Shown one piece after another: positions 18,484-33,185 of a DNA stretch of 33,185 nt (its first letter is position 1; each line of letters opens with the position of its first letter). The notes below the pieces were generated by a model. That model worked only from the letters and a program-made list of their open reading frames with translations, had not been told where the DNA came from and did no database searches. The translations under genes and the position numbers were made by a program. The stretch is taken from assembly GCA_944323615.1 (NCBI GenBank), contig CALUTG010000016.1, positions 1 through 33,185 on the forward strand, in the 5' to 3' direction. The stretch comes from Candidatus Gastranaerophilales bacterium. GTDB taxonomy: Bacteria; Cyanobacteriota; Vampirovibrionia; Gastranaerophilales; Gastranaerophilaceae.

Positions 18484-19006
18484 ACCCTAACTCACCCCCT
18501 GATTTACCCCCTGATTTCCCCCTGGATTTACCCTTTGATTTACCCCTACCCCTCCAGCCGCAGAAAAGGATCTGAAAACAATTAACGGAATATTTCATCA
18601 TAAATCGCTTAAAAGGAAAAACATCAGAGGCTTCCAGCAGGGCATTAAATACCTCTGTGGAAAACCGTCTGTCATTATCTATATATGAATGGTTTTCGCA
18701 TAATACATCATGCACAAGCGCAGGAATAAGAAAACTGTTATCCGTATTTGAACCTATTACGCGCCAAAAAAGACGGGGTATGGAAGCCCCGTCATAGCAA
18801 TAACCTTTCGGTATTATAAAGTTATATGTTTTGTCCTTTTTGTAATCAACAAGCCGGACTCCTAATGTTTTTTTATTAATAAAAGGATATTTTTCTATTG
18901 ATTTTATCTCCTCTTTTGTCATTGATGGAAGAGCGTATCTAATTGAGACATGAGGAATATCATCAAAGAAAATACCCGCATATTCGTTTGAATACCACTC
19001 GATCAT
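18440..19006 (-). CDS. DUF1353 family phage protein with basic repeat tail
   Basis: A 188-residue protein. The core (residues about 45-120) has the DUF1353 pattern: FIIPKGYCYDGASIPRLFW, then LVHDVLCENH, with conserved His and Asp. The family is common in phage late regions but its function is not established. After residue 150 the protein ends in a low-complexity tail with repeated G-K-S units, encoded by 12-base tandem repeats, and overlaps terminase by 44 bases. It occupies the position where a small terminase is often found. GGAGG lies upstream of the ATG. Confidence 0.85.
   Translation of the reverse strand: MIEWYSNEYAGIFFDDIPHVSIRYALPSMTKEEIKSIEKYPFINKKTLGVRLVDYKKDKTYNFIIPKGYCYDGASIPRLFWRVIGSNTDNSFLIPALVHDVLCENHSYIDNDRRFSTEVFNALLEASDVFPFKRFMMKYSVNCFQILFCGWRGRGKSKGKSRGKSGGKSGGELGYESQNESGWQSGQV
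18487..18546 (-). repeat. 12-base tandem repeats ahead of terminase
   Basis: Five units related to GGGGTAAATCAG (plus strand CTGATTTACCCC) lie directly upstream of the terminase ATG and encode the G-K-S tail of the DUF1353 protein. The units also supply G-rich Shine-Dalgarno-like sequences. Confidence 0.8.
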
Positions 19007-19012
19007 TTTTTA

Positions 19013-19270
19013 TTAACCTCCTTGCTGAATTGACTTAGGCAAAGTTTCAAGGACTTTGCCGTTAACCTGAACAATTATACAAAACCAGTTGTTTTTTACA
19101 CATTGTTTTTGAGACTCTTCCAGAGACGGCTGTTTTTGAACCGAAACAGATGCTCTGTTATTGTTGAAAATCTGCTCAGGATTTCTTTGATTCACTAAGG
19201 TTTCATCTTCTCCTGCCATTACGGCGGGAAGAGAAATTAATATTGTTAAAAAGATTAAATATTTTTTCAT
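19013..19270 (-). CDS. small exported protein
   Basis: An 85-residue product with a textbook signal peptide (MKKYLIFLTILISLPAVMA followed by GEDE). The mature part is short, with two cysteines close together (QKQCVKNNWFCIIV) that may form a disulphide. I do not recognise a family. The ATG overlaps the previous gene's stop (ATGA). Being in the late operon, it may act in the periplasm at lysis or in the virion, but that is a guess. Confidence 0.7.
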   Translation of the reverse strand: MKKYLIFLTILISLPAVMAGEDETLVNQRNPEQIFNNNRASVSVQKQPSLEESQKQCVKNNWFCIIVQVNGKVLETLPKSIQQGG

Positions 19271-19746
19271 AATTCCTCGCTTTCATTCGTTTCGTCTTCA
19301 TCTATCTGAACAGGCGGTTCAACATCTTCTCCGTTACCTTTTTGAAAAATGTAGTCCAGCTGTTCAGGAGTTATACTCATTTGAGCCGCCATCAGATCCA
19401 AAAGCGGATTTGACCTTTCGAGTTCTACGCATAAATCCCACTCGAGCTGGGCTTGTTCATTGGTCGCAATTAAAGCTTTCAGCTGGGTATATGTTATCCC
19501 CAGTTCCTGAAGGGCCAGAGCAAAAACTCTTTTAGTAAGGGTTAAATTACCTATTCTTGCAGCCTCTTTAACAGCTTGCGCCTCTTTATACTCCTCTGTA
19601 TCCGCGAATTGAAAATCCACTATGGGACGGTCTGTCTGTTTAACCTCAAGACCTGAATATTCAGGTATAAATACAATTGTATTTTGTAACTTCTGCCTGT
19701 CAGTATCATATAATACAATTTTATTATCTTTCTCTACATAAAACAT
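19267..19746 (-). CDS. putative tail-fibre assembly chaperone
   Basis: A 159-residue protein. The N-terminus is beta-rich (YVEKDNKIVLYDTDRQ); the second half is helical (ALALQELGITYTQLKALI, ELERSNPLLDLMAAQMSITPEQLDYIFQ). The acidic end and its place directly after the fibre gene resemble small fibre-assembly chaperones of tailed phages. No specific family is certain. GGGGGAT precedes the ATG; the gap to the fibre gene is 3 bases. Confidence 0.6.
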   Translation of the reverse strand: MFYVEKDNKIVLYDTDRQKLQNTIVFIPEYSGLEVKQTDRPIVDFQFADTEEYKEAQAVKEAARIGNLTLTKRVFALALQELGITYTQLKALIATNEQAQLEWDLCVELERSNPLLDLMAAQMSITPEQLDYIFQKGNGEDVEPPVQIDEDETNESEEL

Positions 19747-19749
19747 CGT

Positions 19750-21879
19750 TTATCCCCCTTCACCTATTAAATGAATCATTCTGAAGTACTGTGTGCTTCC
19801 TGCTGTTGTATACTGAATCATAAACTTTGCCCCCTTTTCGATTGGAATAAATATAGCCGGAGTATACCCGGAGTTTGTTGAGTGTGCGTTATCTTTATAT
19901 ACAGTTTCACCGCTATCTTTGTTATACACAAAGACAGCAATATATTGATTTGCAGCAGTAGCGGTTTTAGCTAAGTGTAACCAACCATTAAATGGTGCTG
20001 TATATTCTTCTTGCGAAGCTGCCAGCGATAAGTCAACATAATTATTAACATCCGGTATACCCAAACCGGCTAATAAAGAATTATCTGAATCTGTTCTTTG
20101 ATAACAATTACTTATCTGTTCCGCAATCCTTCCTGCATTAATAAGGTTTGCGTTCTGAACCGTTTCGCCTACGTAAAAATAGAGTGAGCCGTTACCTTTT
20201 GCGTATACAAAACGGGAGGCTGCTATATCCCCAGCAGCATTGTAATAAACAAGAACTTGTTGCCCTCTTAACAAAAAAAGGTCACTTGCAGCAATCATTG
20301 AATTTGGAGCATTATTATCTACAAAAAGCATATTTTTCTCAGTTAAATCTACTCCTGTAGCATTTAGTTGTAAATATTGGTTATTTGCTGTGGAATATCT
20401 TCCTAAATTTAACCATCCATTTGCCGGTGCAGTGTAAATAGACCCATTTGCTGGGAATGATATATTGTCATATTTGTCACCAGGTAGATTTTCACTCCCG
20501 TCCAGCAACGGCAGCCTAAACGTTTCATCTGTAGTATTGATTACAAAGTCGTAGTCAGTTATATCCTCATCAGTAGAGAGTTTTACACTCAAACCTCTTT
20601 TTACATAACTTCCGCCGGATGGTAATGTAGCACTATCACCCGCTTCGATTGCGGAATTTTGTTCAACTACCAGCGCTTCATACGCGGTAGGATAAACGGA
20701 TTTAGAATAATATGTCCCGTTGGATAAAAGCCAGGAAGCATTATAAAGAGGAGCCTCTGCGTATTTAGAATCAAACAATGTGTAAGGATTGTTTAACTCA
20801 ATTTCGTTTGTAATATTTACCTCTGTCTCCTGACCTGTTGCTATCTGGATAAAGTATGTTCCTGCAATTTTATAAGGAGCAGGGATGTTGGTTTCAAGTC
20901 CGGAATTAGCAAGATTATCTCCCAATTGTTCAGCAGTAGGAACACCTATAGCTTTATAATTCTCAATACGCGAAGAATGACCCGTTGTGCCAAGAGTTTT
21001 ACCATAAAGACTACCATAAGCAGCAAGACCATAACCACCATCTGCACTATTAGGACTTGCACCGCCCAAAAGGGTTCCATCGGTTAAACCAAGAGCCAGT
21101 CCATTACCCACAACCGGAGCAGTAGCAGCTATATTCCCTATAAAATACTTAGGATAATTCGGAAGCCTTAAAGTTGCTGCCTCTGAATCCGTACCGGCTG
21201 TGTAAACAAACTTACCACACATTCCGTTTGCAGTATTTTCTGACTGCCATTCAGATTCTGTGGTTGCCATATCAGGATTTTGGGCAACAGAGGCAGTAAA
21301 CCAATCAAAAAGCCCTTGAGTATTTGAATTCCGGGTAACTACAGAACCATTTAATACCCTGCGTAACCCTTTGGTTTCATCTATTGCACCCTGAGTGAAA
21401 GCAACGTCGCCCACTTCAAGACCGGATGAGACTTTATCCCAGAAAACATCTGCACCATCGGTTTTTAAATACATATTTTCACAGCCGTCTCTTGAAGGTA
21501 AAAGCTCCAATTCTCCTAAGGCTTCTTCCATTTCAGATTCTTTTACATACAAAGAATCATTTTGAAGTTCACTTACTTTAGTCGGAAGTTCGCTTTTTAA
21601 TGCATAATTTTCCAGAGAATCTTCCAAAGCTTCAAATTGTGCGACGGTAACATCTGCATTATTCTCCGCATAATATTTTGCTTGTTCCATAAATTCGGCC
21701 GCCATATTTTTATATTCTTCAGCCAATTCCGAAAAATACTCCGCCTGATTATTTGTAAGTTTTATGTTCTCTTGAGTCTTATTGGTACTAACATTAAGAC
21801 CGTTAATACATACACAATTTTTCGGAGGCTTAACATTTTCAGAAGCATTAAAACCCACATTAATTTGATTCTTCGACAT
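19750..21879 (-). CDS. phage tail fibre / collar-type protein
   Basis: A 709-residue protein and the main receptor-binding candidate. Residues about 35-125 are helical or coiled coil (AEYFSELAEEYKNMAAEFMEQA). The middle has collar-like segments (LRLPNYPKYFIGN, FRLPLLDGS). The C-terminal third has two copies of a beta domain marked by YTAPANGWL and YTAPFNGWL, each followed by a NQY strand and a GQQVLVYY or GAKFMIQY strand. It overlaps the upstream gene by 20 bases. Confidence 0.85.
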   Translation of the reverse strand: MSKNQINVGFNASENVKPPKNCVCINGLNVSTNKTQENIKLTNNQAEYFSELAEEYKNMAAEFMEQAKYYAENNADVTVAQFEALEDSLENYALKSELPTKVSELQNDSLYVKESEMEEALGELELLPSRDGCENMYLKTDGADVFWDKVSSGLEVGDVAFTQGAIDETKGLRRVLNGSVVTRNSNTQGLFDWFTASVAQNPDMATTESEWQSENTANGMCGKFVYTAGTDSEAATLRLPNYPKYFIGNIAATAPVVGNGLALGLTDGTLLGGASPNSADGGYGLAAYGSLYGKTLGTTGHSSRIENYKAIGVPTAEQLGDNLANSGLETNIPAPYKIAGTYFIQIATGQETEVNITNEIELNNPYTLFDSKYAEAPLYNASWLLSNGTYYSKSVYPTAYEALVVEQNSAIEAGDSATLPSGGSYVKRGLSVKLSTDEDITDYDFVINTTDETFRLPLLDGSENLPGDKYDNISFPANGSIYTAPANGWLNLGRYSTANNQYLQLNATGVDLTEKNMLFVDNNAPNSMIAASDLFLLRGQQVLVYYNAAGDIAASRFVYAKGNGSLYFYVGETVQNANLINAGRIAEQISNCYQRTDSDNSLLAGLGIPDVNNYVDLSLAASQEEYTAPFNGWLHLAKTATAANQYIAVFVYNKDSGETVYKDNAHSTNSGYTPAIFIPIEKGAKFMIQYTTAGSTQYFRMIHLIGEGG

Positions 21880-22252
21880 ACTCTCCGCCTTTCACTTTTC
21901 TTGGATAAACCAAAATTCTGTTTAAATCTCCGTATCCGCAATTTGCGACAAACAAAGTATCTTCTACCAATTCTCCCGGTTGACAAGCCTTAATACCGTA
22001 ATAATAAAGTTCAAACGGTTTATTAACCGGGACGGTAAGAAGATTTGTATAATCCGATGTAAGAACAAATGATACAGTATCGGATTTACTGACAGATACC
22101 TGCAGCTCTTCTCCCACAAGATTTCTTTTAGAATCCTGAATCGCGAAGTACACATTATAACTCTTTGTTTTATCTAAACCGGATACAACAATTTCTCCAC
22201 TGTCACCTTGATAAATTGATATTGTTCCGTCATTTTCTATTATTAAACTCAT
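21860..22252 (-). CDS. phage Ig-like / baseplate-upper-type protein
   Basis: A 130-residue beta-sandwich protein. The sequence IENDGTISIYQGDSGEIVVSG followed by YNVYFAIQDSKRNL resembles the N-terminal Ig-like domain of BppU-type baseplate and fibre proteins. I chose the ATG at 22252 (MSLIIEND), preceded by AGGAGG, over an upstream in-frame start at 22276. It probably sits at a fibre or tail hub attachment. Confidence 0.7.
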   Translation of the reverse strand: MSLIIENDGTISIYQGDSGEIVVSGLDKTKSYNVYFAIQDSKRNLVGEELQVSVSKSDTVSFVLTSDYTNLLTVPVNKPFELYYYGIKACQPGELVEDTLFVANCGYGDLNRILVYPRKVKGGEYVEESN

Positions 22253-22263
22253 TTTATCCTCCT

Positions 22264-22737
22264 TTAACCTTCCCAATCAGCAACTGTCTGCATTAAACAT
22301 TCCTGAATAAAATCAGGGGTTGCAGATTTTATTTCCTGCAGGGTTTTTATATACTCATCGCTGAGCTCATGTGTAAAATCAGGAAGTTTGTAAGTTAAGA
22401 TACTTACATTTACCCCCATATCTAAACCCGCTTTTATTTGTAAAAGTAAGTCTGAAAGAAAATTTCTTGTACTTCCGTCTTTCATTCTTACTTCGCGTCT
22501 TATCCAGCCAAGTGAAGTATTAAAAAATTCTTTCTCAAAAATTTCTTGTCTATAATTTGCAGCTTTTTGAAGGTAAGAAGATTCTGCCAGTTTTTCAGAC
22601 AAATACCATTGCCCGTCATAACCTTGTGCAACATCTAATTTCTGCATACCTATAGATTTATAAAAGCTTTCATTATTACCCAGCCCTACATCACAAAGAC
22701 CTGTTTCGGTATCAGTAACTAAAGCATATTTAAGCAT
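22264..22737 (-). CDS. phage tail-associated protein, fibre-cluster type
   Basis: A 157-residue protein starting MLKYALVTDTETGLCDVGLG, with SIGMQKLDVAQGYDGQWYLSE following. The C-terminal half (TSLGWIRREV, NFLSDLLLQI) resembles a domain often found near fibre genes of gut phages (DUF4376-like). The role may be assembly or a virion part. The ATG at 22737 has GGAGG 6 bases upstream; an upstream in-frame start at 22761 is less likely. It overlaps the previous gene by 8 bases. Confidence 0.65.
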   Translation of the reverse strand: MLKYALVTDTETGLCDVGLGNNESFYKSIGMQKLDVAQGYDGQWYLSEKLAESSYLQKAANYRQEIFEKEFFNTSLGWIRREVRMKDGSTRNFLSDLLLQIKAGLDMGVNVSILTYKLPDFTHELSDEYIKTLQEIKSATPDFIQECLMQTVADWEG

Positions 22738-23275
22738 CTGTATCCTCCTCCTCTTCTTCAATTTTTATTTCTTCTACTACCGGTAAAAAATAAACCGCCG
22801 TTATATTGACAGCACAAGTTACTACATCCCCCTTTTTGACCGGATACGGTACCAGCTGAGCTGCGTTATCATTTTCATGTCCCCTGTATTTTAAATAAAC
22901 AGTTGTTCCATTAACTGTCATATTTCCTGCACCTTGTGCCTGCGGATTTATTAATATATAACCATTGGCTGGAACAGTATATGAATTAGGTTTTCCAATT
23001 GAAATACAAGCTGACCAATCCGGCAGCATTAATGCAGTCATTATACTTTGGTTTGTTTTACTAATTTCCCCATCTAACTCTTCTTTTGTATTATCCAATT
23101 TTTCAGACAATTCAGATAAGTTAGAATTAATCGTTGCAATATTTGATGATACAGATGAAAGACTGGTCGTAAAAGACCCAGCAGTTTCTGAAATTTTATC
23201 ATCAAGATATTGAAAGTTTTTGTTCATAGTCTCAGAACTCGCCAGAGACCCGTATTCGATATTAATTAAGGCCAT
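22730..23275 (-). CDS. short tail-fibre protein: coiled coil plus beta domain
   Basis: A 181-residue protein. Residues 1-30 look like a virion attachment end, and residues about 30-85 form a heptad-type coiled coil (SSNIATINSNLSELSEKLDN). Residues about 95-165 form a beta domain beginning SYTVPANGYILI, matching the YTAPANGWL domain duplicated in the 709-residue fibre. The last residues are acidic (EEIKIEEEEEDTDA). It overlaps the preceding stop by 1 base (TAATG). Confidence 0.75.
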   Translation of the reverse strand: MALINIEYGSLASSETMNKNFQYLDDKISETAGSFTTSLSSVSSNIATINSNLSELSEKLDNTKEELDGEISKTNQSIMTALMLPDWSACISIGKPNSYTVPANGYILINPQAQGAGNMTVNGTTVYLKYRGHENDNAAQLVPYPVKKGDVVTCAVNITAVYFLPVVEEIKIEEEEEDTDA

Positions 23276-23520
23276 TACTTTATTCCTCCTTCCATAATCA
23301 CATCGTAAATTTTATCAATTTTAGCTTGCATATTGTTAAGCTGCCCTTTAAGGTCATTGTATTGCTCTTTTGTTGAATAAGTTCCGGCTATATCGCTCAG
23401 AATTTCTCGGTGTTTCACCTCTAGTGATTCCGGAGTTACAAATAAGTGATATTGAAGTAAAAGAGCAATACACACTATTACTATCGGCAGGTATTTTAGA
23501 ATATATTTTTCTATTTCCAT
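23275..23520 (-). CDS. small single-span membrane protein, holin- or spanin-like
   Basis: An 81-residue protein with one membrane segment (about residues 8-26, YLPIVIVCIALLLQYHLF) and a charged coiled-coil C-terminal part (KEQYNDLKGQLNNMQAKIDKIY). This layout fits an i-spanin or class III-like holin, but the sequence is not diagnostic. The ATG at 23520 has GGGGG at suitable spacing; a TTG at 23526 is too close to it. Confidence 0.6.
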   Translation of the reverse strand: MEIEKYILKYLPIVIVCIALLLQYHLFVTPESLEVKHREILSDIAGTYSTKEQYNDLKGQLNNMQAKIDKIYDVIMEGGIK

Positions 23521-23532
23521 AAACAATACCCC

Positions 23533-24144
23533 CTATCCCGCACTCATCATTGCCATAACGGCAGATAACGCCAGCTGCAATATCTGATCATTACTTATTC
23601 CGCTTCCACCTGACTTATTTGTAGAAGAAGAATTTCCCTGGCTTGTTGCTAAAGATTGAGCTTGATTATTGGATATAATATTATAACCGTTCGTATAATA
23701 CGAAAGAAGATTATTCAAAACATTAGCCGTATTTTCCTGCGAATTAGCAAGTAGGTTATTTGCGAACTCGGCAATAGCATTTGTATTATTCTGGGCAAGA
23801 TTATTATACATATCTGTTGCCTGAGAAGAACGTATCATATTTCTGTTTGATAGCGGATTTATAATATTATTCTCAAGACTGTTTTTAGTTTGTGTATTTA
23901 AAGTATTTGTAAATGAATTCAATTTTGCCTGATTGGTAGTTGAATTCAATGTAGGATTCAAATATTCATCCAGAAGAGACCCTACAGAATTATTTACTGT
24001 ATTATAAATTGTCTCAAATGCCGTTCCAGGCTGAAACACGGTTGCTGTTCCGGCATTATTTGTCGTACTTGTAACATACGGATTTGAAGTTGTAGTATCT
24101 CCATATTTTGTTGTTGAAGTTGTATTTGTAGATTTATTTCCCAT
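23533..24144 (-). CDS. Asn/Thr-rich virion protein, possibly internal/ejection
   Basis: A 203-residue protein, very rich in Asn, Thr and Ser. It begins MGNKSTNTTSTTKYGD, a style common to podovirus internal or ejection proteins, then becomes helical (AIAEFANNLLANSQEN). It ends in a hydrophobic helix, DQILQLALSAVMAMMSAG. The ejection role is inferred from composition and from position right after the hub gene. AAAGGAT precedes the ATG. Confidence 0.6.
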   Translation of the reverse strand: MGNKSTNTTSTTKYGDTTTSNPYVTSTTNNAGTATVFQPGTAFETIYNTVNNSVGSLLDEYLNPTLNSTTNQAKLNSFTNTLNTQTKNSLENNIINPLSNRNMIRSSQATDMYNNLAQNNTNAIAEFANNLLANSQENTANVLNNLLSYYTNGYNIISNNQAQSLATSQGNSSSTNKSGGSGISNDQILQLALSAVMAMMSAG

Positions 24145-24203
24145 AATTAATCCTTTCTTGGGGAAAACAATAAAACAAAGCCTGAACTTCCCCTATATTC
24201 AAG

Positions 24204-25745
24204 CTAAGATTTGACCTTTATTTTTCCGAATTCAATGTTATTTATACAGAAATTCTGTCCCTCTTCTTTTGCATAAAAACTCATCTGCAGAGTTTTAAAA
24301 AACGCAGCAGGCAGTTTTTTTATTGCATTAATTTTCTGAGGAGGGTAAATATTTATATCCCAGTGTCCGATATCAAAATATAAAACATTTCTTAGCGTTT
24401 TTGATATAATCCTTCTGATTTTTGTAGTCATTGAATTATAATCTTTTGTATATTCAATATAAAAATCATTGCTGTAATACATATTCAAGGCAATTTTAGG
24501 TGGATATGCAAGAATTTTGCGAGAATTTTCCACACCTAAATTTAAAGGTGTACATTTGTAATAAGCTTCTATAAATTCCCCGTCAAAATCTGACGAAACA
24601 TATTCTTCATAAATCTTTTTGCCCGCAGAATAAAGCTTTCCGCCTATAATTGCACAACAATTAATCTTCTGGGATTTTCTTTTAACCCAGGCTCTTCTTA
24701 AATAATCATAAATCATGATAGTTGAATAATTTTCCTCCTCGCCCGGCAAAAGAAACCAGATTTCATTCCTGTCAGAAGTTACAACAGAAAGTGCTTTAAT
24801 ATTCTCCAGCTCGGAAACCGGAATTGAAAACAATTCATCCTGAATATCAAGTGCAATATTATCTCCGAGAGTCTTATCTCCATTAACAACCTGTAAGAAA
24901 GAAAATACTCCCTTTTTAGTATCATCATAAAAATAAAGCTGTGTGCCGTGAAAAACTAAAGCATTCGGTCCTGCACACCCGCCCGGAGAATCGAACGTTT
25001 TATAAAAAGAATAATCACTTTCATCCACGGCTATCATGCATGATGAATTTTTATGAAAGACAGCAAGAGTACCCAGATACGGGTAAATAGCCGTTATGGT
25101 TTTGACAAACTCTATATATCCAGCAGAAGTTGAAATTTCTGCATCAGAAGTTTTAAAGTCGTAAATATTTTCCTGAACGGAATACCACAAAACCTGACCG
25201 TTAAATACCCAGAGCCTGCCGGAAAAAATTACAAGACCGAGACCTTTAACGGTTCTTCCATCCATATCTTCAAGCTCCATCATTGTAATTTCATCAAGCT
25301 CGCCGTCCTCATTATAGTTATCAAGTTCTATTGAAAGCATTTCTTCCGAATTAGAAAACACCCACAAATCAGACCAGCCCTGAGCAGCATCCGTTGCCGC
25401 AGATTTTCCCGTTACACTAAGTCCATCAACTTTTTGTACTAAGTCTCCGGAATTGGGATAAAAAAGATAAATCTTACCCTCAGTTGAACTTTCCGTATGT
25501 ACAAAAAAGTAAGTAACAGCTTTTTGCACACTTTCAAAAATATTAATAACCGTCTCTCCCGCAGGAATCAGGTCACTAACTGCAATATTTCCGCTAGATG
25601 TCCTTATTCCGACTCCGGAATTAATCTCTGTTGAAAATAATTCCACATTCTGAATATCAGACGCTGTTATAACAGAAGACGAAAAAACCGACGAACTTCT
25701 GTTTATTCCGGAAAAATTATTGCAGATTAAAGAAGTTCTTTGCAT
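24204..25745 (-). CDS. P22 gp10-like tail hub / DNA stabilisation protein
   Basis: A 513-residue beta-rich protein. Repeated W/F-containing blade-like segments (WSDLWVFSNSEEMLSI, VIFSGRLWVFNGQVLWYS, YLGTLAVFHKNSSCMIAV, LVFHGTQLYFYDD, IWFLLPG) suggest the beta-propeller hub of podovirus tails, like P22 gp10. This plugs the portal channel and binds the fibres. It follows the adaptor family gene in transcription order, as in P22-like phages, but with cargo genes between. A good purine-rich Shine-Dalgarno (AAGGAAAGGA) precedes the ATG. Confidence 0.7.
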   Translation of the reverse strand: MQRTSLICNNFSGINRSSSVFSSSVITASDIQNVELFSTEINSGVGIRTSSGNIAVSDLIPAGETVINIFESVQKAVTYFFVHTESSTEGKIYLFYPNSGDLVQKVDGLSVTGKSAATDAAQGWSDLWVFSNSEEMLSIELDNYNEDGELDEITMMELEDMDGRTVKGLGLVIFSGRLWVFNGQVLWYSVQENIYDFKTSDAEISTSAGYIEFVKTITAIYPYLGTLAVFHKNSSCMIAVDESDYSFYKTFDSPGGCAGPNALVFHGTQLYFYDDTKKGVFSFLQVVNGDKTLGDNIALDIQDELFSIPVSELENIKALSVVTSDRNEIWFLLPGEEENYSTIMIYDYLRRAWVKRKSQKINCCAIIGGKLYSAGKKIYEEYVSSDFDGEFIEAYYKCTPLNLGVENSRKILAYPPKIALNMYYSNDFYIEYTKDYNSMTTKIRRIISKTLRNVLYFDIGHWDINIYPPQKINAIKKLPAAFFKTLQMSFYAKEEGQNFCINNIEFGKIKVKS

Positions 25746-25775
25746 AATTTTTTCCTTTCCTTAATAAATGCAACA

Positions 25776-25806
25776 CAAAAAGAGCCCTGCAGCACGCAAA
25801 AGCTCT
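25776..25806 (-). terminator. probable terminator of the Ca-loop gene pair
   Basis: On the minus strand AGAGC (25806-25802) and GCTCT (25785-25781) pair across a GC-containing loop, followed by TTTT. The stem is short, so confidence is moderate. Confidence 0.5.
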
Positions 25807-25834
25807 GAACAAAAAAGAAAACTAAAAGATTATA

Positions 25835-26380
25835 TTATTCTAAAATATCCGCAAGCTGCTTTATCTGCCGCGGATTGTAATAAGCCCTGTTTTCAGCATC
25901 ATATTTGATAATGAAATCTTCAACAGAACAATAAGTATCTTCAAAGTAGATAGATTTAATTTTTAAATCATGATACCCGTTGGTTTTATGCCGCAGAATT
26001 TTAACCCCTCCCCGAGGGAAGAAGTTAACAGCAGCACCGGCATTTTTATACTCCCCACTCTCTCTTTTTTCAAGAATGAAAAGCTGGGTTCCCATTATCC
26101 ATAAATCATCCGCCTGCCTGCTATATCCCACAACTTCATCCACCCCGTCGCCGTTTAAATCTACAAAAACAGCGAGGATTCGTTCCGGTGTTATATTTTT
26201 ATACATATAAAAATCCATATCTTTTGAAAATTGAATAAGGAATTCTGTCAGTATTTTAGCCGCATCCAAATTGTTTTTCTTAAAATTGATGCTTGAATTA
26301 AAGAACAAAAATATCCAACACATTGTAATTAATATAACAACACTAAGTATTAATACGGTAATTTTTATTCTTTGACTCAT
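25835..26380 (-). CDS. exported/anchored Ca-loop protein B
   Basis: A 181-residue protein with an N-terminal membrane anchor (about residues 8-28). The central FVDLNGDGVDEVVGY carries a D-x-N-x-D-G-x-x-E calcium-binding loop as in VCBS/FG-GAP or dockerin-type modules. TQLFILE follows, and a conserved YNP/R-x-x-QI end. It is the tandem paralogue of the gene just upstream (26384-26911), 3 bases away, with its own AGGA Shine-Dalgarno. It has no typical phage structural role; it looks like cargo. Confidence 0.75.
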   Translation of the reverse strand: MSQRIKITVLILSVVILITMCWIFLFFNSSINFKKNNLDAAKILTEFLIQFSKDMDFYMYKNITPERILAVFVDLNGDGVDEVVGYSRQADDLWIMGTQLFILEKRESGEYKNAGAAVNFFPRGGVKILRHKTNGYHDLKIKSIYFEDTYCSVEDFIIKYDAENRAYYNPRQIKQLADILE

Positions 26381-26383
26381 GTA

Positions 26384-26911
26384 TCATCCTAAATATTTTT
26401 TCAGATTCTGTTGTATCTGGGTTTCATTCTTATAGACATTGCCGTTATATTTAAGAATAAATTTCCTATCCTCAAATAACCCATCGTTTTGAATAAACAA
26501 AGACCAAAGCTGTATATCTCTAAATCCATTTTCTTTAGATCTTAAAATAACCAAATTTTTATCCGGATAAAAGTTAGAATAGCGACAAATATTTCTATAA
26601 TCAAAATTATATCCGCCGCGTTGGAGAATAAATAAAGTTGTTCCGGCAATTCCTGTATACAATTCTGATTTAATATAACCCACAACTTCATCCACCCCGT
26701 CGCCGTTTAAATCTACAAAAACAGCGCGAACATCTTCCGGTGAAACTACTTCTTTATCCGGTTTGCTATTTACGGCTGTTTTATACAAAATCTCCGCAGC
26801 AGACAGGTTATTTTGTTTATCAAGATCTATAGTCCTTGGTGCAACTAAACAGAAAACAACAATATCTAAGATAAAAATAATAAAAATTCCTAACAACCAA
26901 AATCTTTTCAT
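26384..26911 (-). CDS. exported/anchored Ca-loop protein A
   Basis: A 175-residue paralogue of the following gene. It has an N-terminal anchor (MKRFWLLGIFIIFILDIVVFC) with a Cys at the end that is not a clear lipobox. AVFVDLNGDGVDEVVGY carries the calcium loop, followed by TTLFILQRGG. No Shine-Dalgarno precedes the ATG, but a TAGAAT box sits 6 bases upstream, suggesting a leaderless bicistronic mRNA. With the terminator at 25776-25806 the pair forms a free-standing unit inside the phage block. Confidence 0.75.
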   Translation of the reverse strand: MKRFWLLGIFIIFILDIVVFCLVAPRTIDLDKQNNLSAAEILYKTAVNSKPDKEVVSPEDVRAVFVDLNGDGVDEVVGYIKSELYTGIAGTTLFILQRGGYNFDYRNICRYSNFYPDKNLVILRSKENGFRDIQLWSLFIQNDGLFEDRKFILKYNGNVYKNETQIQQNLKKYLG

Positions 26912-26917
26912 ACCATA

Positions 26918-26923
26918 ATTCTA
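26918..26923 (-). promoter_or_regulatory. -10 box, likely leaderless start of the Ca-loop pair
   Basis: TAGAAT on the minus strand, then 6 bases (TATGGT), then the ATG at 26911. No clear -35 and no Shine-Dalgarno. Confidence 0.45.
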
Positions 26924-27107
26924 CAATAAAAAATTTTACTTATACTAAAGCCACCACCTCCTTTTTTCAGTGTTAATATTTATTGCGTTTTTTACTTAAA
27001 AATAAATTCAATTTTACATTTCTTAATATTTGGGCTTAAAAAAGGCAATTTTTTGTAATAGATATACTTTATATATATGTAAGAGATAAATACAGGAGCT
27101 TTATAAG

Positions 27108-27398
27108 ATGTTATTCACTACTAATACAGTTAACAACGAAGAACTTAACTCTATTAACAACTTCTTCAAACAGTATGACAAAGAAATTGAAGTAGTTGAC
27201 GTGAATGACGTTGTTGAAGAAACTCCTGTTTCTAAATACATCTCTTCACTTGTTTCTTCTCAGTATCAAAAATCTGTTGAAGATATAGAAAACACCAAAG
27301 TCGGTAACAGAATCGTCAGAAAAAGATCCCTCCAGCAGGTTATGAGAGAATCTTTCTTCTACGGCGCTAACAGATTCGGTAACAATTTCATCGCTTAA
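27108..27398 (+). CDS. 96-residue gene of unknown function, high-expression codons
   Basis: I do not recognise this protein (MLFTTNTVNNEELNS...). The N-terminal half is acidic; the C-terminal half is basic (VGNRIVRKRSLQQVMRES) and ends in FFYGANRFGNNFIA, a charge split that could allow self-assembly or nucleic acid binding. Codons (AAC, TTC, CTT, TCT) resemble rpsB and tsf rather than neighbouring phage genes. AGGAG lies 10 bases before the ATG. It opposes the phage genes and has its own terminator, typical of a lysogenic-conversion 'moron'. Confidence 0.75.
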   Translation: MLFTTNTVNNEELNSINNFFKQYDKEIEVVDVNDVVEETPVSKYISSLVSSQYQKSVEDIENTKVGNRIVRKRSLQQVMRESFFYGANRFGNNFIA

Positions 27399-27508: not shown

Positions 27509-28168
27509 TTACTGAATAATACGTTTGTCCGTCTCAAGAGCCTTTGCATACTTAACCAATAGTCTATAAGCTTTATCAGCCTGCTTTTTGTAAGCTGAAT
27601 AGTTTTCATCGCTTTCAGATGCTATAGAATTAATCATTGCCTTTGTAATAATTGCATCTTTCATCAATACTTCAAGATGAGGCGGAACAGAGAGAATATC
27701 ATCCTGATTCTTGAGGGTATAAATCTCTTCCCCGCTTGCAGTTTCACCGATAGCAAGAGTAGAATAATCTATCGTAACGATGGATTTCACAACAGGAGAC
27801 GGATAAAGAACTATTTTATCTCCTTTTATAAAGAACCCTTCCGGCATCCCGCATTTGTGTTCTAAACTTTCAGGATTTTCAATCAAATCAAGAAATTTTG
27901 AATTAAGTTTAACTAAATATTTACCTCCGGAATCTTTTTTGATAAGCCCGTTTGGCAAGTCATACGCATCCGTACCAGGGATGGTGAGTATAACATGAGT
28001 TCGCTCCCTGAACGGAAAATCGTAAGAAGAGTAAATATCCACAATAGCTTTATTCAAAGCCAAAACAAGTGAATCTTCAAACTCAGATTCAGAAGCAGCA
28101 TCGTTGTCATACATTGACCACTCTTGCGATGCCGCTGTGTTGTACAAATCAAGTAATGTTAACGTCAT
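27509..28168 (-). CDS. podovirus-type head-tail adaptor
   Basis: A 219-residue protein resembling the portal-attached adaptor family (P22 gp4 / T7 gp11-like). Helical ends (LTLLDLYNTAASQEW; SAYKKQADKAYRLLVKYAKALETD) surround a beta section (FPFRERTHVILTIPGTDAYDLPNG, GDKIVLYPSPVVKSIVTIDYS). The ATG at 28168 (MTLTLLDLY) has AAAGGAGG upstream; an in-frame TTG at 28237 would add residues without a ribosome site. A portal gene would be expected just upstream but is absent. Confidence 0.7.
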   Translation of the reverse strand: MTLTLLDLYNTAASQEWSMYDNDAASESEFEDSLVLALNKAIVDIYSSYDFPFRERTHVILTIPGTDAYDLPNGLIKKDSGGKYLVKLNSKFLDLIENPESLEHKCGMPEGFFIKGDKIVLYPSPVVKSIVTIDYSTLAIGETASGEEIYTLKNQDDILSVPPHLEVLMKDAIITKAMINSIASESDENYSAYKKQADKAYRLLVKYAKALETDKRIIQ

Positions 28169-28340
28169 AAAACCTCCTTTAAATTGTAATCTATCATAAT
28201 TTTTTATTTTTACCGATTCCACTTTTGCATTTTCCAAGAAGAAAAAGATTGCAATTTTACATTTCCTCCAAACTACTAAACATAATTACTAACACTATTT
28301 TATTCTTCTTGGGTAATAAACTTATCGTTTAACATTATTA

Positions 28341-28376: not shown

Positions 28377-28766
28377 ATGCAGCTACCTAAAACCAGTAAA
28401 TATAAGACAATAAATTTCTTTAACTATCTCTTTTATACGAGTATTCTTGTATATGTCCCTTTTATCATTTACAGACTCAACCACTATAGTGAAAAAGAGC
28501 ATGTCGTACTTGTAATTGACTGGATTTTAAATACTTTAATTTTCTTTTTTCCGGTTTTCGTAGTACTTATTCAGACATTAATTTTTTCCAAATCCGAATA
28601 TGTAATCTCAAACAGTGACAAAAAGTTCTTTGATAATCCTACAGATAGAAAGAAAATTTTTCAGAAGATAGTTACAAATACTGCTTTAACACTATTTTTT
28701 ATCTTTCTTATTATTTACTTATTACTTACTATATATCTTATTTATCTAAGTTACGGAATTGACTAA
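28377..28766 (+). CDS. small two- or three-span membrane protein
   Basis: A 129-residue protein with hydrophobic segments at about residues 17-33, 47-68 and 101-126. Family unknown. It opposes the phage genes, sits between the lysis gene and the adaptor where portal and capsid genes would be expected, and has its own leaderless promoter. The stop is 4 bases from the end of the transglycosylase gene, tail to tail. Exclusion or immunity function is possible but unproven. Confidence 0.7.
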   Translation: MQLPKTSKYKTINFFNYLFYTSILVYVPFIIYRLNHYSEKEHVVLVIDWILNTLIFFFPVFVVLIQTLIFSKSEYVISNSDKKFFDNPTDRKKIFQKIVTNTALTLFFIFLIIYLLLTIYLIYLSYGID

Positions 28767-28770
28767 TAAT

Positions 28771-29271
28771 TTAGCCAGTAACTTCTGACACATCGTAATC
28801 CGCGAACTGTTTCATATAACTTTCTATACTTGTTCCAAAACCGTCCCGGCTGTTATTTTTCCCGCCGCTCTTTAAATAATCTATAACCGCACCCGCGCCT
28901 TTGAGATGAGCACCGGCAAGCAGACCGGATGAAGTTATTTTATACCCGTTTATAACCAGACCTAAATACTTATCCGCACCTACAGCCTTTAAATATCCCC
29001 ACTGTTTTTTCTTAAAAGCAATTTGAGAATTTTCCTGAGCCTTAGGATTATTTAAAAAATCTTGAATTGACCAAACGCCGTCCTTTCCCATAAATTCTCC
29101 GCGCCAGTCATTATTATATATATGGGAAGGCTTTTTGTAATATCCTGCATCAATTAGAGCCGCTTCACCCATCTGGTATTTACCGGCATAACCGTATTTA
29201 TTAAAAGCTTTATAATTCCCGCCAGATTCTCTTGCGCCGAGATCATTTAAAAATTGCTGAAACGTTTTCAT
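28771..29271 (-). CDS. phage lytic-transglycosylase-like endolysin
   Basis: A 166-residue muramidase-type protein without a signal peptide. The N-terminus FLNDLGARESGGNYKAFNKYGYAGKYQMG has the SLT-like E-S-G-G catalytic motif (Glu15) and the G-Y-x-G-x-Y-Q-M-G motif, followed by AALIDAGYY. The fold is that of phage and VgrG-linked lysozymes that cut peptidoglycan. Without an export signal it needs a holin or delivery with the virion. The ATG overlaps the previous stop (TAATG), with GAGGAGGGG upstream. Confidence 0.85.
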   Translation of the reverse strand: MKTFQQFLNDLGARESGGNYKAFNKYGYAGKYQMGEAALIDAGYYKKPSHIYNNDWRGEFMGKDGVWSIQDFLNNPKAQENSQIAFKKKQWGYLKAVGADKYLGLVINGYKITSSGLLAGAHLKGAGAVIDYLKSGGKNNSRDGFGTSIESYMKQFADYDVSEVTG

Positions 29272-29474
29272 TATTTCCCCTCCTCATCCAGAACTTTGGA
29301 TAATATAGATTTATCATCCTGAACTTTTTCTGCTTTTTTAATCCTGTCGCGGAATTTTTTTCCGTTCTTTTCAAGGATTTTGTAATCCGACGGGAATTTT
29401 TCTTTCAATTCTTTTGCAATATTATCCGGCAAAACAAAGATATGGCCGGTCGGAATAAATTCTATCTTGTACAT
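29271..29474 (-). CDS. small basic phage protein before the endolysin
   Basis: A 67-residue protein of unknown function. It has a short beta start (MYKIEFIPTGHIFVLPDN) and then a Lys-rich helical part (KEKFPSDYKILEKNGKKFRDRIKKAEKVQ). GGGGAG lies upstream. It is coupled to the endolysin by a 1-base overlap. Confidence 0.65.
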   Translation of the reverse strand: MYKIEFIPTGHIFVLPDNIAKELKEKFPSDYKILEKNGKKFRDRIKKAEKVQDDKSILSKVLDEEGK

Positions 29475-29486: not shown

Positions 29487-29633
29487 CTAAATTAAATCTT
29501 CCAGCATTTGAGAAATCTCTTTATCTGACATATCCTTCAGAGGTTTTGTGTTATACTTTTTCTTTAAAATATCCAGAGGAGAAATTTCTCCCCAGACTAA
29601 TTCTTTTTCGTTTTGAAAATTCTTATCCGTCAT
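29487..29633 (-). CDS. 48-residue ORF at the start of the lysis group
   Basis: A short ORF with a good ribosome site (AAAGGAATTAATT before the ATG). It begins MTDKNFQNEKELVWG and ends SDKEISQMLEDLI. Its first four residues and its 5' sequence match the start of the lipase at 30272-31027, but the proteins diverge at once. It is 12 bases before the 67-residue gene. It may be a small phage protein or what remains after recombination at this promoter. Confidence 0.6.
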   Translation of the reverse strand: MTDKNFQNEKELVWGEISPLDILKKKYNTKPLKDMSDKEISQMLEDLI

Positions 29634-29725
29634 AATTAATTCCTTTCTTTATTAACATGTGATACAATCACAATATGAAACTTGATTCTTATTTCAAAAA
29701 TCTCCCCAATATGTGGAGTGCTAAT
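29623..29725. repeat. duplicated divergent promoter segment, copy 1
   Basis: About 100 bases covering the start of the 48-residue ORF, the promoter and the first 17 codons of the membrane protein. They match 31017-31119 with about five differences by eye. Confidence 0.85.
29658..29672. promoter_or_regulatory. palindromic operator over an extended -10, copy 1
   Basis: TGTGAT-ACA-ATCACA is a perfect inverted repeat. It contains the extended -10 TGATACAAT (29660-29668); the ATG of the membrane protein follows 6 bases after the -10. On the minus strand TGTTAATAA (29659-29651) may be the -10 for the phage side. Confidence 0.65.
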
Positions 29726-30268
29726 TTCTTAGCTATGCTGGGTTTTGTTAGCTTTATATTTTCTATTATTGGTATTGCTTCCTTAATTTTTTATTCGCAT
29801 ATCAATATAGATATGCCATATAAAATTGGAGCATCAATAAAAGACATCGGCTGGTATTTTATATTGATTCAGGGCTCTCTATTACCGGTCATTTGTTTGC
29901 TTGGAATATTACCTATAATTACTCAGTACGGTATTTTAATGAGACCAAGTAAAAACACTCATCTGCAAATATTATTACTTGCCGTAGTTATAACATTATG
30001 CACACTGCCAAGCTACATATTCTATGCCGAAAACGGAAGCGGATTCTTCTTTGCTTTTATTCCATTCTTTTGCTATCCGGTTTTAATTGCAGTATTTTTT
30101 ATATTTATTACATTGTTATTTATAGATTTAATTTTAAAAAAACAAATTCCTAATAAAAACCTTGTGAAAAATAAGTACTACAAGTTTATAGTAAATATTT
30201 TTTTCTGGTATTCAATTGTTATTTTCATTCTTGCTTTTATTACAATATATAAAATTCATCAGATTTAA
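29675..30268 (+). CDS. polytopic membrane protein, array copy 1
   Basis: A 197-residue protein with about five membrane segments (about residues 17-41, 59-86, 98-117, 123-151 and 173-193). The N-terminal SYFKNLPNMWSAN is shared by all three copies, as is the C-terminal pattern K-Q-I-P and N-I-F-F. The central part differs strongly from copies 2 and 3. It has no Shine-Dalgarno and a leaderless-type promoter. It runs tail to tail with lipase 1, 3 bases apart. Function unknown; immunity to a membrane-acting lipase is one hypothesis. Confidence 0.8.
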   Translation: MKLDSYFKNLPNMWSANFLAMLGFVSFIFSIIGIASLIFYSHINIDMPYKIGASIKDIGWYFILIQGSLLPVICLLGILPIITQYGILMRPSKNTHLQILLLAVVITLCTLPSYIFYAENGSGFFFAFIPFFCYPVLIAVFFIFITLLFIDLILKKQIPNKNLVKNKYYKFIVNIFFWYSIVIFILAFITIYKIHQI

Positions 30269-30271
30269 AAT

Positions 30272-31027
30272 TTAATAAGGATAAACATAATTTTTTATTT
30301 TGTCTTGCATTTTTTGCATATTGTTATGAAGATAGTTTTTAACTTTATTTGTTGTATATTCCATCTTATTTTCTACTCTATTTAGAATATTCTTATGTCT
30401 CTTTAAATCCTGTGGTGTTCTAAATTCTCTGTCAGCCAAAGAATTCATGGCGCGAGAAAAGTGAGGAATTTGATTACTTTTACTGTTTACTGCATATGTT
30501 GTACCGATATGATTTTCAGCATTAAACATTGTTATAGGATCCCATTCATTTATATAATTAATCAAATTATCATCTTTAAATTTTGTACCTTCTATAAACA
30601 TATTTTTAATGCCATATGGATTAAATGTAACCGCATTTCCGCCACGTACACCTGAAACAATAGCCCCTAAACTACCTCCCAATGACTCTCCGGTCATTGT
30701 AATATCAAGATTTGGATACTTTTCCAGTGTTTTATCATAAAGATTCAACGCATCTATTGCTTGCATTGGAAGTCTTTTTTGAGCCATATATACATCATTT
30801 TTTATATCCTTTTTGGCTTCTCCAGGTTTTAAATCAGTTCCTCTATATGCAATTATTATATCCTTACCATTTGATAAAACATCTGCATAGAAACCATTAT
30901 CATCATTTTTTCCAACATCAATAACTTTATATCCTGATGGCAAAGATGTTTTACCATCATGATATGAATATAATGCTGCTTGCTTTAGTAGCTCATGGTA
31001 CTTTATATCATCTTTTTTATCCGTCAT
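30272..31027 (-). CDS. class-3-type lipase/phospholipase 1
   Basis: A 251-residue alpha/beta hydrolase. Catalytic residues line up as Ser115 in TGESLGGSLG, Asp163 in INEWDP and His173 in NHIG. The oxyanion-side motif IIAYRGTD and the segment NDVYMAQKRLPMQAIDA are typical of lipase class 3/Mbeg1-like proteins. The nucleophile elbow is GESLG rather than the commoner GHSLG. There is no signal peptide. I place the start at 31027 (MTDKK) because this aligns residue for residue with lipase 2 (KYHE at 9-12); an ATG at 31039 arises from a base change in the old Shine-Dalgarno. Confidence 0.85.
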   Translation of the reverse strand: MTDKKDDIKYHELLKQAALYSYHDGKTSLPSGYKVIDVGKNDDNGFYADVLSNGKDIIIAYRGTDLKPGEAKKDIKNDVYMAQKRLPMQAIDALNLYDKTLEKYPNLDITMTGESLGGSLGAIVSGVRGGNAVTFNPYGIKNMFIEGTKFKDDNLINYINEWDPITMFNAENHIGTTYAVNSKSNQIPHFSRAMNSLADREFRTPQDLKRHKNILNRVENKMEYTTNKVKNYLHNNMQKMQDKIKNYVYPY

Positions 31028-31119
31028 AATTAATTCCATTCTTTATTAACATGTGATACAATCACAATATGAAACTTAATTCTTATTTCAAAAATCTTCC
31101 CGACATGTGGAGTGCTAAT
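31017..31119. repeat. duplicated divergent promoter segment, copy 2
   Basis: Partner of 29623-29725. One of the few differences changes AAGGA to ATGGA in the minus-strand ribosome site and creates an upstream in-frame ATG for the lipase. Confidence 0.85.
31052..31066. promoter_or_regulatory. palindromic operator over an extended -10, copy 2
   Basis: The same 15-base palindrome TGTGATACAATCACA as at 29658-29672, between lipase 1 and membrane protein copy 2. The -10 TACAAT ends 6 bases before the ATG at 31069. Confidence 0.65.
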
Positions 31120-31665
31120 GTTATAGCTATGCTGGGGTTTGTAAGTTTTGTTCTTGCAATTATTGCCAAATCCGTTACATTTTATTATTCGGGAGATGCG
31201 TTTTCTCTTCCAAAAACACTTGAGGCAGTTCATGTAATGTTTGAAAGTTACATAATATTACATGTGTGTCTATTCCCGTTAACCTGCGCTCACGCAATTG
31301 TTCCTATTATTGTTCAATATGTATTGTTTGCTAAGCAAAAACTACAAAACAATATCACATTTATCATAATGATAGTTTTTACTATTCTTTGCACAATTCC
31401 GGGGTATAATAAATTTGATTTCAACAGAGGTAAGGGCATATATTTGGCATTTCTATCATTATTTGGTTCGCCTGTTACATTGCTTGCATTTATTATACTT
31501 TTTATATTACTCTATAGAGACTTGAAAAACAGAAAACAAATACCTGACAGTAAGCATATTACAAATCCTTCTTATATCAATTTTATAAATATTTTCTTCT
31601 GGTACGGAACTGTTGTACTGATTCTTGAAGCTCTTCTGCTGGTATATATGTTCATAATTTTATAA
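31069..31665 (+). CDS. polytopic membrane protein, array copy 2
   Basis: A 198-residue paralogue of copies 1 and 3 with about five membrane segments. It is much closer to copy 3 than to copy 1 over the centre (CAHAIVPIIVQY, AKQKLQNNI, MIVFTILCTIPGY) and the end (KQIPDSKHIT). It has a leaderless-type start under the palindromic operator. It is tail to tail with lipase 2, 8 bases apart, with no terminator between. Confidence 0.8.
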   Translation: MKLNSYFKNLPDMWSANVIAMLGFVSFVLAIIAKSVTFYYSGDAFSLPKTLEAVHVMFESYIILHVCLFPLTCAHAIVPIIVQYVLFAKQKLQNNITFIIMIVFTILCTIPGYNKFDFNRGKGIYLAFLSLFGSPVTLLAFIILFILLYRDLKNRKQIPDSKHITNPSYINFINIFFWYGTVVLILEALLLVYMFIIL

Positions 31666-31673
31666 AATTCCCT

Positions 31674-32564
31674 CTAACTTCCATGCTTCGCGCCGCAGGT
31701 ACGTACATAATCACCGACTTTTGTCCCGTCAGAACGCGTATAACCGCTCACTGTATATGAACCAACGCATTGTGAACCGGTTGAACCACCCTTATCTTTG
31801 TCTTTTCTCCCGAGCTTTTTATCAATTGAAGATTTTAAATCTCCCATCTTTTGCCGAATATTATTTTTGAGATTTCCAGCCGTTTCTCCGGATATAAGCT
31901 CCTTCACTTTTGTCATATTTGGATGCAAGTTCTTACTTGTCTGTTTAATTTCTTCAGTAGTTCGTATTTTCCTTTGAGACAAATCTTCCATGCTTTCTGC
32001 CTCATGGCTGTTTGCGCTTCCGGGTTTTTCAGGTACTGCATAAATTTCTCCGATATGACTCTGCCCGTTCACCATTGCTATATAGTCCTTCTCATTAACA
32101 TAGTTTATTACATTATTTTCCTTTAACTTTATTCCGCTTTTGAACATATCTCTGACTCCATAGGCGTTAAATGTCGCGGCAAAAACTCCCCTGATACCGG
32201 AAACTATTTCGCCAAGGCTTCCTCCCAGAGAATGACCTGTTACAGATATGTCCATCCCCGGATTCTCCCTCGCTACTTTATCATAAACAGCTATGGCATC
32301 CGTTGCCTGAGCAGGAAGCCTATTTCTTGCCATTGCTATATCGTTCCTAATATCTTCTCGGGTAGTTGGTTCCGTTCCGCGATAGGCTATTATCATATCT
32401 TTTCCGTTGGACAGAACTTCGGCATGAAAGCCGTTATTTTTATTATCCACTGAATCAATTACTTTATATCCGGCAGGAGGTTTTGAATTATCCTTGCGAT
32501 ATGCATATATAGAGGCTTGTTTTAGTATTTCATGATACTTAGTATCTTCTTTTTTATTTTTCAT
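31674..32564 (-). CDS. class-3-type lipase/phospholipase 2 with C-terminal module
   Basis: A 296-residue paralogue of lipase 1. Triad: Ser112 in TGHSLGGSLG, Asp160 in VNEKDY, His170 in SHIG. IIAYRGTEP and NDIAMARNRLPAQATDA are conserved. Beyond the hydrolase domain it has a basic linker (about residues 225-262) and an extra 30-residue module, CVGSYTVSGYTRSDGTKVGD followed by YVRTCGAKHG, with paired cysteines; lipase 1 lacks this. There is no signal peptide. AAGGAAA precedes the ATG. It is divergent from membrane protein copy 3. Confidence 0.88.
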   Translation of the reverse strand: MKNKKEDTKYHEILKQASIYAYRKDNSKPPAGYKVIDSVDNKNNGFHAEVLSNGKDMIIAYRGTEPTTREDIRNDIAMARNRLPAQATDAIAVYDKVARENPGMDISVTGHSLGGSLGEIVSGIRGVFAATFNAYGVRDMFKSGIKLKENNVINYVNEKDYIAMVNGQSHIGEIYAVPEKPGSANSHEAESMEDLSQRKIRTTEEIKQTSKNLHPNMTKVKELISGETAGNLKNNIRQKMGDLKSSIDKKLGRKDKDKGGSTGSQCVGSYTVSGYTRSDGTKVGDYVRTCGAKHGS

Positions 32565-32593
32565 ACTTTTTCCTTTTCTTAAATAATGTTTAC

Positions 32594-32602
32594 TGATATA
32601 AT
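32594..32602 (+). promoter_or_regulatory. extended -10, leaderless start of array copy 3
   Basis: TG-A-TATAAT, a perfect extended -10, then 6 bases (TACGAT), then the ATG at 32609. The palindrome of copies 1 and 2 is not present here. Confidence 0.7.
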
Positions 32603-32608
32603 TACGAT

Positions 32609-33185
32609 ATGAATATTAAGTCTTATTTCAAAAATCTCCCCAATATGTGGAGTGCTAATATTATAGCTATGCTCGGTTTTGTGAGCTTTGTTCTTATAAT
32701 TATTGCCATGGTTGCTTCATCCTATTATTCCGTAGATGAGTTCCCGTTTCCGCAAACATTCCGAGACCTCTACGGATTGATTGAAGACTGCTTACTATTA
32801 CAAGGGTGCATGTTTCCGTTAATCTGTGCTCACGCAATTATTCCCATTATTGTTCAATGTATATTGCTTGCTAAGCAGAAACTACAAAACAATATCATAT
32901 TTAGCATAATGATAGTTTTTACTATTCTATGTACAATACCCGGATATGACTTATTTGATTCCAGCAGAGGAGGGGGCATTTATTTTGCCTTCTTACCAAT
33001 ATTAGGCTCCCCGATAACAATAAGTGCATTTATTATACTTGTTATATTATTTTGCCGTGACTTGAAAAGCAGCAAACAAATACCTGACAGTAAACGTATT
33101 ACAAACCGTTCCTATATCAATTTTGTAAATATCTTTTTCTGTTATGGAATTGTAGAACTAACTCTCGCATTAGTTCTGCTTATCT
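32609..33185 (+). CDS. polytopic membrane protein, array copy 3 (cut by window end)
   Basis: 192 residues are visible and the frame is still open at the window end. It starts MNIKSYFKNLPNMWSANII and is clearly paralogous to copy 2 along its length (CAHAIIPIIVQC, AKQKLQNNI, IPGYDLFD, KQIPDSKRIT). By the pattern of the array a third lipase on the minus strand may follow beyond the window. Confidence 0.8.
   Translation, partial: MNIKSYFKNLPNMWSANIIAMLGFVSFVLIIIAMVASSYYSVDEFPFPQTFRDLYGLIEDCLLLQGCMFPLICAHAIIPIIVQCILLAKQKLQNNIIFSIMIVFTILCTIPGYDLFDSSRGGGIYFAFLPILGSPITISAFIILVILFCRDLKSSKQIPDSKRITNRSYINFVNIFFCYGIVELTLALVLLI

Follow-up and report, generated by a model that had tools for sequence, protein, structure and literature searches.

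An alternating lipase and membrane-protein array in a phage-type element of Gastranaerophilales: a candidate toxin/immunity cassette

Introduction

MuF polymorphic toxins of temperate phages (PMC5576092; Bxa, PMC11699363) are the closest known kind of system to the locus described here: their genes lie in the head region near the portal gene, they are proposed to be targeted to the capsid, and immunity genes adjoin them. In the P22 system, a C-terminal piece of scaffold protein brings cargo that is fused in front of it into capsids (PMC9962691). The release of gene transfer agents (GTAs) depends on lysis (PMC8987985). Here we analyse a stretch of 33,185 nucleotides (the window), which is contig C16 of a 1.93 Mb metagenome-assembled genome (MAG) from the Gastranaerophilales (G000), uncultured bacteria of the gut with a relationship to cyanobacteria. 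The window ends in an array of three genes for membrane proteins (M1 to M3) that alternate with two lipase genes. The locus is real and unusual, and what is established about it is genomic. With slightly better than even confidence, we read the array as a toxin/immunity cassette that fills the cargo slot of a domesticated phage element of GTA-like kind; the lipases would be capsid-loaded antibacterial effectors and the M proteins membrane immunity proteins.

Results

The alternation of M genes on the plus strand with lipase genes on the minus strand spans positions 29675-33184 in the map of open reading frames (ORFs) of the window, the last M gene running off the contig. The array and its left neighbour consist of the following features (lengths in amino acids, aa):

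29487..29633, minus strand: adaptor-like gene of 48 aa with a WGEI..DIL...Y core and a C-terminus (DMSDKEISQMLEDLI) like that of the putative scaffold
29675..30268, plus strand: M1, polytopic membrane protein and candidate immunity protein, 197 aa, convergent with lipase 2
30272..31039, minus strand: lipase 2, class-3-like, 255 aa, no C-terminal tag, GESLGGS nucleophile elbow, likely start at 31027
31069..31665, plus strand: M2, candidate immunity protein, 198 aa, convergent with lipase 1
31674..32564, minus strand: lipase 1, class-3 lipase of 296 aa with a C-terminal tag of 33 aa, GHSLGGS elbow
31677..31775, minus strand: the tag module CVGSYTVSGYTRSDGTKVGDYVRTCGAKH in lipase 1, common to GH108 muramidases, portal-adjacent proteins and other lipases
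32609..33185, plus strand: M3, candidate orphan immunity protein cut off by the end of the contig; contig C27 adds a few codons to its frame

An initial annotation, made from the sequence, had described three plus-strand membrane proteins alternating with two minus-strand lipases. ORFs, gaps and paralogue identities bear this out: convergent genes are separated by stop-to-stop gaps of 3 and 8 nt and head-to-head genes by ~30-45 nt, the two lipases are ~50% identical, and the M proteins of the window share 38-66% identity. The M and lipase genes had thus been correctly listed, and the 48-aa gene on the minus strand (29487-29633) overlooked. A 152-nt block, comprising ~55 nt upstream of an M gene and the start of that gene, is present three times at spacings of 1394 and 1540 nt. 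This repeat at each M start shows that the array arose by tandem duplication of a unit of one M and one lipase gene. In a promoter scan of the array, sites were no commoner than in shuffled sequence.

The same annotation had set the array beside a phage lysis end. Instead, it occupies a cargo slot in a head operon. Contig C27 starts with sequence that extends the third M frame, followed by a 128-aa gene, the gene of the major capsid protein (MCP), a putative scaffold gene and, further on, the portal gene, all on the minus strand; the window end and the C27 start share 7 nt (CTTATCT), which is weak by itself. In genome G026, the same order (67-aa gene, M on the plus strand, lipase on the minus strand, 128-aa gene, capsid gene) stands on a single contig. 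Most other genomes have an empty site, with no more than 57-132 bp between the 67-aa and 128-aa genes. In two genomes (G019 and G033), lipase/M arrays lie instead between the portal and putative scaffold genes, across the capsid gene from this slot. The scaffold assignment, for a gene of 200-240 aa, is based on its length and its position before the capsid gene. At every mapped locus linked to the element, the lipase lies on the strand of the head genes and M on the opposite strand. A different insert fills the 67-aa/128-aa slot of G043 (L190:13450-15602), where a 235-aa protein stands between two similar 125-aa membrane proteins.

The element itself is conserved. Its profile-recognised genes are those for the terminase, a SU10-type portal and adaptor, the major head protein and a tail chaperone. 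Of the 65 genomes of the genus, 58 have the capsid gene, among them the genome of the window; two of the 58 (G008 and G060) hold only pieces of it. It is single-copy in nearly all, and a few genomes hold a second type, 62-64% identical, or solely that one. In G035, G044 and G062 (L222-L224), a second capsid element, 61-64% identical and with a different gene order, lies beside the main one or replaces it. The examined loci keep their gene order and their flanks, with rpsB-tsf at one end and alcohol-dehydrogenase-like and HEAT-repeat genes at the other; G033 appears to be rearranged. The median ratios of non-synonymous to synonymous substitution rates (dN/dS) are 0.07 for MCP, 0.12 for the portal and 0.024 for the large terminase (TerL, from only 5 unsaturated pairs). 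Distances between MCPs track those of a host gene at the flank (Mantel r 0.75, p 0.001, n=15), and the correlation between TerL and tsf distances was not significant in five genomes (r 0.29, p 0.22). The 35 proteins scanned from two genomes included no recognised integrase or replication protein, though sub-threshold families could escape such a scan. The capsid gene also occurs on short IMG/VR contigs. Most of these are pieces of the present element, one extends into a host gene, and three bear the more distant capsid type (58-70%). Because order and flanks are conserved, selection is purifying and integrase or replication genes were not recognised, and given the vertical signal, the element looks domesticated and GTA-like. 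Its cargo evolves faster than its structural genes (median dN/dS 0.30 for the lipase, 0.38 for M and 0.34 for the portal-adjacent tagged protein), and the lipase arrays are variable cargo.

Both lipases of the window carry the GxSxG elbow, and the triad S112, D160 and H187 is invariant in the alignment (A3). By elbow and triad they fit class-3 lipases, and lipase activity is predicted for them. Lipase 1 matches Pfam Lipase_3 (E 1.1e-5) and Mbeg1-like (1.7e-5), both above the cut-off, and the NCBIfam SA1320 family at 4e-16, which is far below the cut-off of that family; the Lipase_3/Mbeg1-like match of lipase 2 (E 7e-4) falls below the cut-off. The best sequence match in PDB was a lipase effector of a type VI secretion system (T6SS), 7ubz, at a non-significant E of 0.037. 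A relative, L104, has an N-terminal segment like minor head proteins (MuF; PHROG 115, 1.2e-8; Pfam 0.021, below cut-off), and neither window lipase had a MuF match among Pfam and PHROG profiles. The lipase 2 orthologues in G010 and G004 likewise end without the tag. A chimeric-looking lipase in G004 (L130:3918-4691), with an N-terminus like one lipase type and the rest like lipase 2, suggests recombination at shared gene starts.

The M proteins have 5-6 hydrophobic spans in a simple hydropathy count. M1 had no match in Pfam, PHROG or PADLOC, and no relatives of the family were found in IMG/VR or among INPHARED phages. The family is present in 16 of 144 relatives, all of one genus. Co-occurrence with the lipase, which the initial annotation had proposed as a check, holds in one direction: every genome with M has a lipase gene in the same small locus (in G034 a tag-only relic instead), and lipases are also found without M, this lipase class having matches in 53 of the 144 genomes, part of them to the tag alone. 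In many of the latter cases an unrelated small membrane protein occupies the same convergent place, as swapping of immunity genes would give. A convergent neighbour with at least two hydrophobic spans stands beside 41 of 71 lipase or tagged genes and beside 25 of the 522 remaining genes (odds ratio 27, Fisher p 7e-27); the counts come from loci fetched for lipases and tags and homologous loci are non-independent, so p is only a guide. Several arrays hold more M than lipase genes, and lipase fragments adjoin intact M genes. Neighbours of toxins, orphan immunity candidates and toxin fragments, the layout of immunity genes in polymorphic toxin systems, are therefore all found here. A common N-terminal motif for all small membrane partners, sought by regular expression, was dropped for lack of discrimination (25/58 partners versus 42/145 others).

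The 33-aa tag at the end of lipase 1 also occurs on other lipases, GH108 muramidases, DUF6973-type and unassigned proteins, and near the N-terminus of proteins of 300-640 aa, many of which adjoin the portal. With a permissive threshold, matches to the tag, some of them partial, were found in 168 of the order's 383 genomes. The tag looks like a shared module joined to different toxin domains, as in polymorphic toxin systems, with a putative role in trafficking. A small lipoprotein gene precedes the tagged muramidases, and the one tested (L122) matches the lysozyme inhibitor LprI (PF07007, 1.1e-9). Tagged muramidase and LprI make a recognisable enzyme/inhibitor pair, by predicted domains, and this is the best single argument for lipase and M as effector and immunity protein.

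Several other loci bear on the tag and the cargo. Tagged GH108 muramidases outside the element lie at L122:1121-2576, L127:6101-7573 and L129:8223-9653, with a small lipoprotein before each. On C27 (L133:2333-5638), two related portal-adjacent proteins (one of 403 aa, the other split into 199 and 121 aa) lie around a membrane protein of 247 aa, which may represent a further duplication of effector and immunity genes. In G033 (L103:10341-11012), a 223-aa cargo-slot protein combines an N-terminal Cys/His stretch like that of minor head proteins with a serum amyloid A domain (PF00277, 3.7e-26).

Relatives of the 48-aa adaptor (45-49 aa) accompany all arrays examined (16 genomes), including pairs outside the element. 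The gene has a clear ribosome-binding site, a median dN/dS of 0.30 and a position on the lipase strand ~42 nt from the M1 start; its occurrence in the 16 genomes, the ribosome-binding site and dN/dS speak for a real gene and against a decayed effector. We built a hidden Markov model (HMM) solely from the last 22 residues of 32 putative scaffolds and ran it on 10,584 non-redundant ORFs. Beyond scaffolds, its only matches were to the C-termini of adaptors, tagged muramidases and lipases, within an ORF set that was enriched for such loci; similarity of short helical peptides could also be convergent. In lipase L105, the adaptor sequence is fused to the end of the enzyme.

The remaining genes of the element in the window extend from the left border of the array to the host genes rpsB-tsf (13853-15561):

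29271..29474, minus strand: conserved 67-aa gene of the element, left border of the array
28771..29271, minus strand: lysozyme-like protein of the element (PHROG 27932, baseplate hub/tail lysozyme, 5.5e-19)
27509..28237, minus strand: SU10-type adaptor (Pfam SU10_adaptor, 7e-8)
18440..27398, minus strand: tail-side genes of 709, 181, 83, 203 and 513 aa, with a 96-aa gene on the opposite strand
18440-19006, minus strand: tail assembly chaperone (PHROG)
17152..18483, minus strand: large terminase (PHROG 2, 3.7e-33), next to rpsB-tsf

A 129-aa membrane protein, possibly encoded by an orphan immunity gene, lies between the lysozyme-like and SU10 adaptor genes (28377-28766, plus strand). Two paralogous proteins of the element (175-181 aa) with a FVDLNGDGVDEVVGY motif are encoded at 25835-26911 on the minus strand.

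Discussion

The sequences show the layout of the array and its place in the head operon, the conserved element with its fast-evolving cargo, the sharing of the tag, the likeness of C-termini to that of the putative scaffold, and the excess of convergent membrane neighbours. Packaging, delivery, toxicity, immunity and a separate expression of M are steps that we infer. The lipases are probably produced together with the particles, because they have no evident signal peptide and lie on the strand of the head genes. Loading into the particle may proceed through the 33-aa tag plus the 48-aa adaptor, or through a fused scaffold-like C-terminal peptide, which would imitate the contact of the scaffold protein with the capsid. 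Since the P22 fusions set a precedent for cargo with a C-terminal piece of scaffold, loading into the head is plausible. At contact with another cell, the lipases would attack the membrane of the target, and M proteins in the inner membrane of kin would block the lipase. As M lies on the opposite strand, its expression apart from the head operon is possible.

Several observations weigh against this reading. Outside the scaffolds, the matches of the scaffold-tail HMM have modest E values (1e-5 to 0.05, and 0.12 for one lipase), so that its evidence lies in the exclusiveness of the matches, and the putative scaffold has weak PHROG support (0.0046 for head assembly; 0.073 for scaffolding). Lipase 2 has no tag, most tagged muramidases are located away from the element, and the lipase/M pairs of G046, G008 and G055 sit outside it. 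Distances of lipases and their convergent M proteins are uncorrelated (Mantel -0.05, p 0.62, 15 pairs), which speaks against a strict one-to-one specificity or reflects near-saturated distances. AlphaFold2 models of lipase 1 and M2, from 7 and 9 sequences, reached pLDDT values of 45-50, too low for the models to be of use.

Among the three functions that the initial annotation had offered, effector and immunity fits best, given the enrichment of convergent membrane partners and the constant company of M with a lipase or its relic; its interpretation as a whole is supported in part. Self-protection during lysis was another; as a lysis aid, the lipases, like the tagged muramidases, would break the producing cell at particle release, and M would delay or restrain them. 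The lipases are indeed co-oriented with late structural genes, the GH108 domain of a tagged muramidase is endolysin-like (phrog_315, 3e-32), and GTAs require lysis for their release (PMC8987985). However, arrays contain surplus M genes and lipase relics, the cargo varies between species and is often missing while the element persists, pairs are found outside the element, and a scaffold-like C-terminus makes little sense on a free lysis enzyme; we regard a lysis aid as rather unlikely. The third function, exclusion of superinfecting phages or anti-phage defence, in which the pair damages or blocks the membrane upon entry of a foreign phage, gained no specific support and appears very improbable. 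A polytopic membrane protein paired with an enzyme at a phage-derived location would suit it, but the pair has no match to the PADLOC models of known anti-phage defence systems, and the tag on muramidases and portal-adjacent proteins, together with the scaffold-like tails, points to the particle and not to sensing.

The same toxin/immunity pair might also be freed by lysis or exported by a host route, with another role for the C-terminal peptide. Such a release agrees with the isolated lipase/M pairs and with the GH108 genes that have ordinary chromosomal neighbours, and packaging in the particle is a prediction from sequence. But the pairs away from the element (G046, G008, G055, G042 and G037) keep the adaptor with its scaffold-like tail, and markers for T6SS, type IV (T4SS) and type VII secretion systems (T7SS) were not found over cut-off in 63 congeners (TssC, VirB4 and WXG100, 0/63 each; one marker per system, in incomplete MAGs). 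We therefore give this alternative little credence. Finally, the setting could be a temperate prophage of the ordinary, active sort that carries a moron cassette, which would be compatible with effector and immunity. Its structural genes all look intact, and one copy of the element has two small helix-turn-helix genes; yet the single copy, the flanks conserved genus-wide, the vertical signal, the lack of a recognised integrase or replication gene among the scanned proteins, and the matched IMG/VR contigs, mostly pieces of the same element, make an active prophage improbable.

Beyond the toxin/immunity cassette that we favour, a wider picture is conceivable, although we hold it with considerable doubt: a domesticated particle, common to the genus, would carry antibacterial lipases by scaffold imitation, perhaps with host DNA, and only kin with a matching membrane protein would survive contact. 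If true, this would be a natural case of toxin loading into a phage head through scaffold mimicry, and would supply a concrete hypothesis for the packaging of phage-borne polymorphic toxins. It would also place a GTA-like element in cyanobacterial sister groups, where the literature searched shows none, and would turn the function of the widespread, unnamed 33-aa tag into a testable question.

Each of the known systems resembles the locus in some traits. Structural clusters with terminase, portal and capsid genes, conserved flanks, purifying selection and the lack of integrase and replication genes also characterise GTAs (PMC9836097, PMC8987985), none of which was reported for this group in the literature searched. 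Unlike GTAs, the element has a SU10-type portal and variable, toxin-like cargo, and it is known from its genes alone, DNA transfer being only putative. The reverse-order lipase toxin TslA of the T7SS and its partner TilA (PMC10730906) share with the array an N-terminal lipase, a C-terminal targeting region, an envelope immunity protein and small helical partners. However, TslA is a T7SS substrate, whereas no T7SS marker was found in the 63 congeners here, TilA is a lipoprotein and M is polytopic, and the targeting parts are likened by description. Tle effectors of the T6SS have the class-3 lipase in common, but TssC was not found in the 63 congeners. With scaffold-fusion loading in P22 (PMC9962691), the locus shares cargo that lies N-terminal to a C-terminal scaffold piece; that system is engineered, while this one is apparently natural, as judged by sequence similarity only.

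MuF toxins remain the nearest relatives in kind. One relative lipase (L104) bears a MuF-like segment, and the head region matches, although the capsid gene separates the array of the window from the portal. Most lipases here are without a MuF domain, in place of which stand the C-terminal tag of 33 aa and an adaptor whose tail resembles that of the scaffold; the immunity candidates are convergent membrane proteins in multi-copy arrays, and the element looks domesticated. The word "lipase" is absent from the text of the MuF survey. The literature searched contains no described system with this layout, in agreement with the initial annotation, and MuF toxins come closest to it.

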